From Janibacter anophelis NBRC 107843 (GTDB lineage: Bacteria; Actinomycetota; Actinomycetes; Actinomycetales; Dermatophilaceae): 41,206 bases of DNA. The position numbers and the translations under genes are program-made. The notes beneath the pieces were generated by a model. That model had not been told where the DNA came from, made no database searches, and worked only from the letters and a program-made list of their open reading frames with translations. Below, piece by piece: positions 6,121-21,808 of the stretch (the stretch's first letter is position 1; every line of letters starts with the position of its first letter). The DNA is taken from assembly GCF_001570945.1 (NCBI RefSeq), contig NZ_BCSQ01000030.1, positions 1 to 41,206 of the forward strand. The letters run 5' to 3'.

Positions 6121-6280
6121 ACGGGTACGGGGGCTTCCCGGACTTCCTGACTCGACGACGTGGCGACCCCCGGAAACTGCGGGGACATCAGGACGAAACT
6201 ACCTGAACCCTTGCCTCCAGCGGTCACCAGACCAACGACCACCTGCGTCCCGGTGTTCCCGCTCCCTCCGGGCCCACGCT

Positions 6281-6320
6281 GGTCGAGGTGCGAGGAGCGC
6301 CAGCGACGAGCCTCGAGACC
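6281..6320. repeat. REP-like imperfect palindrome, copy 1
   Basis: The sequence runs GGTCGAGGTGCGAGGAGCGC then CAGCGACGAGCCTCGAGACC. Its ends are inverted copies of each other (GGTCGAGG / CCTCGAGACC, with GCGAG / GCTCGTCGC inside). A related palindrome with the same ends and spacing lies at 13111-13151. Short dispersed palindromes of this style are familiar from Micrococcales intergenic regions; copy number elsewhere cannot be seen here. Confidence 0.6.
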
Positions 6321-6348
6321 ACGACCACGACGGAGGGACCGAGAGGGA

Positions 6349-6458
6349 GACGCAAGGAGCGCGCGGCGCGAATCAAGGATGAAGCCCCGCCTCACGACCA
6401 GGTGACGTGCAGGATCGCGAGCGGGGCTTCATCCCCAGCGCCGGGTGCTTCTTGCGTC
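6349..6458 (+). repeat. structured two-helix element, copy A
   Basis: An outer helix pairs 6349-6369 with 6438-6458 over 21 positions: 18 Watson-Crick pairs, two G-T wobbles and one mismatch. Inside it lies an asymmetric internal loop, GAATCAAG (6370-6377) opposite CCCA (6434-6437). A perfect 13-bp inner helix follows (GATGAAGCCCCGC at 6378-6390 with GCGGGGCTTCATC at 6421-6433), closing a 30-nt loop. A second copy at 21623-21720 has the same internal loop but different, still pairing helices. Both G-T pairs would be A-C mismatches on the other strand, so a plus-strand transcript is favoured. It lies between minus-strand genes hpt and ftsH. Function is unknown; it may be a structural RNA, a mobile-element remnant or a single-stranded DNA substrate. 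Confidence 0.7.
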
Positions 6459-21531: not shown

Positions 21532-21563
21532 GAGGCTGCATTGCCATGGGGCAATGCAGCCTC
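21532..21563. repeat. perfect 14-bp palindrome with 4-nt loop
   Basis: GAGGCTGCATTGCC (21532-21545) and GGCAATGCAGCCTC (21550-21563) are exact inverted copies around ATGG. It lies 38 bases upstream of the minus-strand hydrolase start and downstream of holB. It could be an operator or leader hairpin for the hydrolase, or a terminator for tmk-holB; there is no T-tract. Confidence 0.8.
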
Positions 21564-21622: not shown

Positions 21623-21720
21623 CGGACGGAGGGCGTGGCGCGAATCAAGCCGAAGTCGAGAACGACAACGTGACCACGCGACGACGAAGGACTTCGGCCC
21701 AGCGCCACGTCCTTCGTCCG
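21623..21720 (+). repeat. structured two-helix element, copy B
   Basis: The outer helix pairs 21623-21641 with 21702-21720: 19 consecutive pairs, of which two are G-T wobbles at the same positions (9th and 13th from the inside) as in copy A. The internal loop is again GAATCAAG (21642-21649) opposite CCCA (21698-21701). The inner helix is CCGAAGTC (21650-21657) with GACTTCGG (21690-21697), unrelated to copy A but fully paired, closing a 32-nt loop. Relative to copy A, outer-helix positions 6, 10, 15 and 17 show compensatory base-pair changes. Conservation of shape over sequence indicates selection on structure. Confidence 0.7.
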
Positions 21721-21759
21721 TCGGCGCACCAGCGCCACGTCCTTCGTCCGTCGACGCAC
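21700..21759 (+). repeat. 30-bp tandem duplication
   Basis: Units 21700-21729 and 21730-21759, both beginning CAGCGCCACGTCCTTCGTCC, differ at one base (G21724 versus A21754). The unit contains the right arm of the structured element, so the element has an alternative right arm at 21732-21750. Confidence 0.9.
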
Positions 21760-21775
21760 CCAGCCCCTTCGAGAC

Positions 21776-21790
21776 GGTCGCTGCGCGACC
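21776..21790. repeat. small hairpin after holB
   Basis: GGTCGC-TGC-GCGACC, set in GAGAC...TCCTC, lies 19 bases past the holB stop on the minus strand. It resembles short dispersed hairpins of Micrococcales and might end the tmk-holB transcript. Confidence 0.4.
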
Positions 21791-21808
21791 TCCTCAGAGC
21801 GCGTGGCG

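Follow-up and report, generated by a model that had tools for sequence, protein, structure and literature searches.

A dispersed family of structured hairpin repeats with a fixed internal loop, found largely at gene ends in Janibacter

The stretch of DNA analyzed here (the window, 41,206 nt) is contig 30 of the 3.3-Mb draft genome of Janibacter anophelis NBRC 107843, and it carries two copies, A and B, of a hairpin-forming element. Copy A lies between hpt and ftsH, while copy B lies between holB (delta') and a gene that gives weak alpha/beta-hydrolase-type matches. All four of these neighboring genes are on the minus strand. The parts of the two copies are listed in Table 1.

Table 1. Parts of copies A and B and nearby gene ends, in positions of the window.
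Feature	Position	Strand	Basis
Copy A, outer helix, left arm (21 nt)	6349..6369	+	fold and pair-by-pair reading
Copy A, conserved unpaired GAATCAA	6370..6376	+	fold, pair-by-pair reading, column conservation
Copy A, inner helix, left arm (14 pairs)	6377..6390	+	fold
Copy A, apical part (unlike that of the J. hoylei orthologue)	6391..6420	+	fold, orthologue comparison
Copy A, inner helix, right arm	6421..6434	+	fold
Copy A, internal loop, CCA side	6435..6437	+	fold and pair-by-pair reading
Copy A, outer helix, right arm	6438..6458	+	fold
hpt stop codon near copy A	begins 6523, ends 6521	minus	gene calls
Copy B, outer helix, left arm (19 nt)	21623..21641	+	fold and pair-by-pair reading
Copy B, conserved unpaired GAATCAA	21642..21648	+	fold and pair-by-pair reading
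Copy B, inner helix, left arm (9 pairs)	21649..21657	+	fold
Copy B, apical part	21658..21689	+	fold
Copy B, inner helix, right arm	21690..21698	+	fold
Copy B, internal loop, CCA side	21699..21701	+	fold and pair-by-pair reading
Copy B, outer helix, right arm	21702..21720	+	fold
30-nt tandem repeat of 21699-21728 with a single difference, comprising the copy B CCA and right arm plus 8 nt more	21729..21758	+	sequence reading
holB (delta') gene end near copy B	21809	minus	gene calls

The original prediction held that the two copies fold alike, and a pair-by-pair reading agrees: the outer helix spans 21 positions in copy A and 19 in copy B, and the internal loop, GAATCAAG opposite CCCA, is identical in both. 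The swapped pairs described at outer-helix positions 6, 10, 15, and 17 are confirmed, as are the G-T pairs at positions 9 and 13 of both copies; position 7, absent from that description, is a G-G mismatch in copy A and a G-C pair in copy B. The inner helices, which had been called unrelated in sequence, do mostly differ, but both hold GAAG near the same place. Relative to dinucleotide shuffles, the folding z-scores on the plus strand are -10.0 for copy A and -7.35 for copy B, and those on the minus strand are weaker (-7.67 and -3.95, respectively). Two instances of the pattern GCGCGAATCAAG-N40..70-CCCAGCGC are present in the window, and 50 first-order Markov shuffles gave none; a similar pattern gives five matches in the J. 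anophelis genome, and its reversed control gives none.

Copies A and B are members of a dispersed repeat family of Janibacter, made up of hairpins of approximately 100 nt. A first covariance model, built from 10 copies, returned 28 rows in the J. anophelis genome at E ≤ 0.1, six of which repeat a place on the opposite strand, leaving 22 places; one of these (C49:220) has the motif and the helices. At E ≤ 0.01, the same model matched 17 of 39 genomes, including 15 Janibacter genomes (J. anophelis among them) and two genomes of other families, whose matches (L054 and L055) lack the motif by eye. Family matches are present in 15 of the 16 Janibacter genomes, with G001 the exception. A second model, built from 71 copies, was run on 119 genomes of the taxonomic family, representing 53 genera, and at E ≤ 1e-5 it found matches in five genomes, all of the single genus Janibacter; because its filters were stricter and scoring was confined to 33 first-look candidates in each genome, weak relatives could escape it, and under it G003 drops from five rows to one. 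The exact pattern occurs in 48 stretches of genome_contigs, nine of which have both helices and are all from Janibacter, and the other 39 were treated as chance. Among the phages of viral_contigs there are two exact matches, neither with both helices, and the plasmids gave no match to copy A. Thus, the further copies for which a covariance-model search had been suggested do exist, and they keep their helices. Subfamilies differ in the letters beside the loop (GAATCAAG, GACTCATG, GACTCAGG, and GCATCAAG), and the inner helices of the other copies likewise fall into subfamilies. For the comparisons below, a 44-copy set omits four real copies (L034, L046, L050, and L064), which are also lacking from a set of 128 distinct copies; the 44-copy set further omits L016, L054, and L055, which have no element, and L001-L015 and L039, which are repeat places.

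That no named family matches had been suspected as well, and Rfam 15 bears this out. Over the gathering threshold, only tRNA was found in the window, and a search with copy A at E values up to 10 yielded 15 matches, all under the gathering score and mostly microRNA hairpins, on which grounds a known Rfam RNA was rejected. The core sequence was not found in the full-text literature, in which subscription journals are thinly covered, and no description of the family was found in the literature on Janibacter intergenic repeats (by title), palindromic repeats, or terminators.

On the plus strand, the common fold consists of an outer helix of approximately 16-30 pairs, an asymmetric loop with G-A-M-U-C-A-A opposite N-N-A, an inner helix, and a variable apex. 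In an alignment of 71 copies (A4), which was fitted to the model and hence leans towards the structure, 94.2% of 1858 cells pair, compared with 40-53% in slid controls. Two-sided changes are seen in 24 of the 27 pairs, a value as high as which was reached in 0 of 500 shuffles, and they occupy 361 cells compared with 101.5 in the shuffles. A MAFFT alignment of 10 copies gives 95.4% paired cells and two-sided change in 20 of 27 pairs, with the structure read from those same sequences. Within the loop, the unpaired UC is invariant in the 71 aligned copies (T and C in 71 of 71), and the A and G columns are conserved in 70 and 69 copies, respectively. The proposal that selection acts on shape together with a fixed internal loop is strongly supported by this covariation and column conservation. 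A loop-loop pseudoknot pairing UCA with an apical UGA, judged by eye, showed no apparent covariation.

Gene contexts were assigned with our own gene finder, the output of which was looked over on the window. The 128 distinct copies comprise 76 between convergent genes, 23 between tandem genes to which the folded strand is antisense ('--'), 13 between tandem genes to which it is sense ('++'), 13 between divergent genes, and 3 with one gene uncalled, and at least one gene 3' end lies in the gap for 112 of the 125 copies with both neighbors called. By comparison, 3 of 29 element-free gaps of at least 60 nt in 113 kb of Janibacter DNA are convergent (Fisher p of about 1e-6 versus the copies), this being a small sample made up partly of the surroundings of copies. 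At convergent pairs, the gene that faces the 3' end of the element is the closer of the two in 58 of 76 cases, with a median distance from the match end of 47.5 nt versus 96 nt for the other gene. The excess of antisense over sense copies in tandem contexts is the reverse of what would be predicted for a simple terminator of the upstream gene. None of the 128 copies has a U-tract, on one strand or the other, in the 20 nt starting 5 nt past the match, and a terminator scan found nothing at copy A or B.

To ask which strand folds, transition-type departures from pairing in the outer helix were counted as G.T or A.C on a strand-neutral alignment. G.T exceeds A.C by 56 to 8 in 44 copies (47 other mismatches), by 166 to 40 in 128 copies (115 other mismatches), and by 80 to 14 on A4, where other kinds of mismatch are frequent as well (62 of 1058 cells); because the copies are related, computed p-values for this bias are too small. 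These counts uphold the plus-strand preference that had been proposed from the wobbles of copies A and B, and the predominance of G.T departures identifies the plus strand as the folded strand. The inner helix gives 12:4 on A4 (p = 0.08). Among the 128 copies, the direction of the bias is the same in all four gene contexts (100:22 for convergent, 24:11 for '--', 24:2 for '++', and 16:3 for divergent), and it is weaker in '--' than in '++' (p = 0.03), which is what local sense transcription would add. In the stems of terminators, too, GU intermediates are reported to be commoner than AC intermediates (PMC5381666).

An invariant loop between free-drifting helices, together with a plus-strand bias in every gene context, would be expected if a Janibacter protein recognized the GAMUCAA/NNA loop across many 3' regions to control decay or processing. 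Such an RNA regulon is unlikely in our estimation, given that the sequences scanned at copies A and B contain no sigma-70-like promoter and that the strand that folds is opposite to the mRNA in '--' contexts. Equally doubtful is its genus-wide form, in which tens of 3'-end hairpins per genome would share one loop motif bound by a single putative Janibacter factor, which would determine where the transcripts of convergent genes end or how stable they are; if this were true, a mobile repeat would have become, or would be spreading as, a set of portable regulated terminators.

The presence and orientation of the element vary between genomes. At the hpt end, 5 of 15 loci carry a match, with the element in one orientation in G000, G011, and G013 and in the other in G004 (J. 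hoylei) and G007. G000 and G004 have the same element in common there, the outer arms of G000 and G011 differ, and G007 and G013 bear another subfamily. The holB end is filled in 1 of 16 genomes, that of J. anophelis itself, and at ten other gene ends 46 of 98 orthologous regions count as filled, with a match of at least 30 bits (L263 and L264 were left unused among the 100 regions fetched). Plain hairpins of 12 bp or more were counted in the same gaps, leaving out the degenerate variants L178, L213, and L238. Over all 95 orthologous gaps, a plain hairpin is present in 17 of 46 filled and 25 of 49 empty gaps (p = 0.22), and in gaps with 40-250 unmasked nt the numbers are 8 of 28 for filled and 25 of 37 for empty gaps (p = 0.003), a restriction that is fairer but was applied after the unrestricted result. 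A larger contrast obtained with the element masked and the three degenerate variants counted as empty (8 of 46 versus 36 of 52) is inflated, since masking the element shortens the searched stretch. These counts are moderate evidence that the element and plain hairpins are exchanged at orthologous ends.

At one gene end, the copy in G009 sits between both arms of the plain terminator of G006, with flanks identical at 21 of 22 positions on the left and 16 of 22 on the right, and no target-site duplication is evident in this one clear filled/empty pair. Insertion within a terminator is seen at this one locus; in L197, the element adjoins an intact terminator. In subfamily III, GAGCGG is often found at both ends (by eye). 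The idea that the outer arms always derive from the terminator of the target holds at the one locus and is rejected by the arm identities. Among non-orthologous copies with a core identity of at least 0.88 (78 pairs), the cores are 0.90 alike and the two arms 0.69 and 0.63; among orthologues (27 pairs), the cores are 0.925 alike and the arms 0.84 and 0.81; and among pairs with a core below 0.5 (233 pairs), the arms are 0.57 and 0.49 alike. The value for the flank beyond the arms is 0.46. This pattern suggests that the arms are mostly a component of the element itself and evolve quickly, at about three times the rate of the core, with pairing kept over the whole set.

Several repeats neighbor the element or are combined with it. 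One-arm tandem duplicates lie beside a full copy in several species (window 21699-21758, L019, L245, L251, and L120), and the rapid turnover of the arms may originate in them. Shrunken forms, with outer arms and an inner hairpin that is gone or short, are seen in L238 (G009), L178 (G010), L213 (G003), and L255 (G011), and this set includes a plain terminator with GGCGCGACTCAA in its loop. At 21768-21797 of the window, a second palindrome, short in length (TTCGAGACG-N10..22-CTCCTCAG), has stems that also compensate (CTTGC..GCAAG and GTCGC..GCGAC) and gives 28 exact pattern matches in the J. anophelis genome, the reversed control giving none. It occurs inside the apical loop of main-element copies L028 (G000:C33), L038 (G000:C23), and L247 (G011:C5), and its presence in the loops of different subfamilies indicates either spread or rebuilding of the composite. 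A third repeat, also a hairpin (GAGGCTGCATTGCC-NNNN-GGCAATGCAGCCTC), lies at 21532-21563, and L264 (G006) has three consecutive units of a similar kind. Upstream of copy A there is a repeat of the GGTCGAGGTGCGAGGAGCGC..GACGAGCCTCGAGACC type (window 6262-6330; L123), and the corresponding place in G006, which is without the element, has related units arranged in tandem.

The nearest non-orthologous copy comes from the same clade for 88 of 128 copies (shuffled mean 44, maximum 64), with clades grouped by eye and not from a tree, and from the same genome for 32 of 128 (shuffled mean 13, maximum 29); nearest copies in the same clade are what lineage-wise spreading is expected to produce. These values would suit a purely selfish, non-autonomous mobile hairpin, like ERIC or YPAL, that has no host function, whose folded strand would be recognized by a mobilizing machinery, and for which gene 3' ends would merely be tolerated or targeted. 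The presence, absence, and orientation flips at orthologous sites are consistent with this, as are the match counts of 0 to 37 per Janibacter genome (opposite-strand rows included), the tandem half copies, and the paired elements in divergent arrangement, which are 26-83 nt apart in G004, G005, G006, G008, and G013 and 219 nt apart in G000. YPAL, moreover, is reported to have its targets at dyad symmetries (PMC2229807). We nevertheless regard this explanation as rather unlikely. For one inner-helix motif, all 41 of 41 exact matches lie inside short units found by the model, and a longer autonomous copy around that motif was rejected, as no extended copy enclosing a gene was found. Copies of all ages, orthologues counted together, keep their pairing. 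A search for a linked protein had been suggested, and of the two kinds looked for in 16 Janibacter genomes neither was found: Y1 (IS200/IS605-type) transposase, the sole transposase family looked for, is present in 0 of 16 (with a control positive in 5 of 14 genomes), and integron integrase over the curated cut-off is likewise present in 0 of 16, sub-threshold matches occurring also in 14 of 14 control genomes.

We consider that the family is a dispersed structured RNA which most likely acts as a transcript-end boundary, either a terminator or a 3'-end stabilizer, chiefly of convergent genes, and we give this reading a probability of about one half. The element would be transcribed within 3' regions and would mark transcript ends between neighboring genes; the unit would spread among gene ends in the manner of ERIC or YPAL, and its insertion at or next to a terminator may lead to replacement of that terminator. 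Stem sequence may be free to drift since it is pairing that matters, and recognition would keep the loop constant, presumably through a bound protein or because the loop forms a three-dimensional RNA motif. A boundary function is supported by the location of the copies, their apparent exchange with plain terminators, the strand bias, and GU compensation as reported for known terminators (PMC5381666). The missing U-tract and the antisense excess in tandem pairs argue against a textbook intrinsic terminator, and for this reason we place the boundary function at one half, with the selfish repeat and the protein-bound regulon as its main rivals. The fixed internal loop, which is not needed for termination, and the 13 copies between divergent genes also count against it. 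The original prediction offered a protein-binding RNA, a mobile-element substrate, or a regulator. Presence and absence at orthologous sites and the orientation flips support dispersal, but the 3'-end position and the apparent exchange with terminators point first to a transcript-end function, which was not named. With a stem sequence that is nearly free, a shape and one small loop that persist, and a measurable strand bias that tells which strand is folded, the family is a clean natural data set for asking whether such repeats work as RNA, and it lets one watch a repeat take over transcript ends within one genus.

The element can be compared with four known systems. Integron attC sites are folded palindromes near stop codons with conserved unpaired bases. 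The Janibacter palindrome likewise has conserved unpaired bases near stop codons and sequence-free stems, and its strand bias would fit a folded single-stranded DNA site, recombined by an integrase, on the plus strand, which is the template for the gene whose stop adjoins the site. We disfavor this explanation as highly improbable. An attC-like box pair is found in 0 of 128 copies and no integron integrase over the cut-off is present in the 16 genomes, on which grounds an integron attC was rejected, and the neighbors in the window are hpt, ftsH, and holB, not cassettes. REP palindromes with their RAYT transposases resemble the family in being short, dispersed, and extragenic. They were rejected as an identity for it given that all 16 Janibacter genomes lack a Y1 transposase, and the Janibacter stems, in contrast, are not conserved in sequence.

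The bidirectional intrinsic terminators of convergent genes have the same position as the Janibacter element and a GC-rich stem, and intrinsic terminators share with it stem compensation in which GU is reported to be the commoner intermediate (PMC5381666). Its apparent exchange with plain hairpins at orthologous sites, in the length-matched comparison, would be a further terminator-like trait. However, the Janibacter element is longer and nested, has a fixed internal loop and no U-tract, and is dispersed between loci. The ERIC (IRU/RU-1) and YPAL (RU-2) repeats of enterobacteria are described in PMC2229807 as dispersed intergenic sequences of approximately 100-200 bp whose transcripts fold into long hairpins; for ERIC the orientation is important, and YPAL has both filled and empty sites. 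The Janibacter family resembles them in being multicopy and intergenic, with filled and empty orthologous sites. It differs from them in having no Rfam match and in that its stems covary freely around an invariant internal loop.
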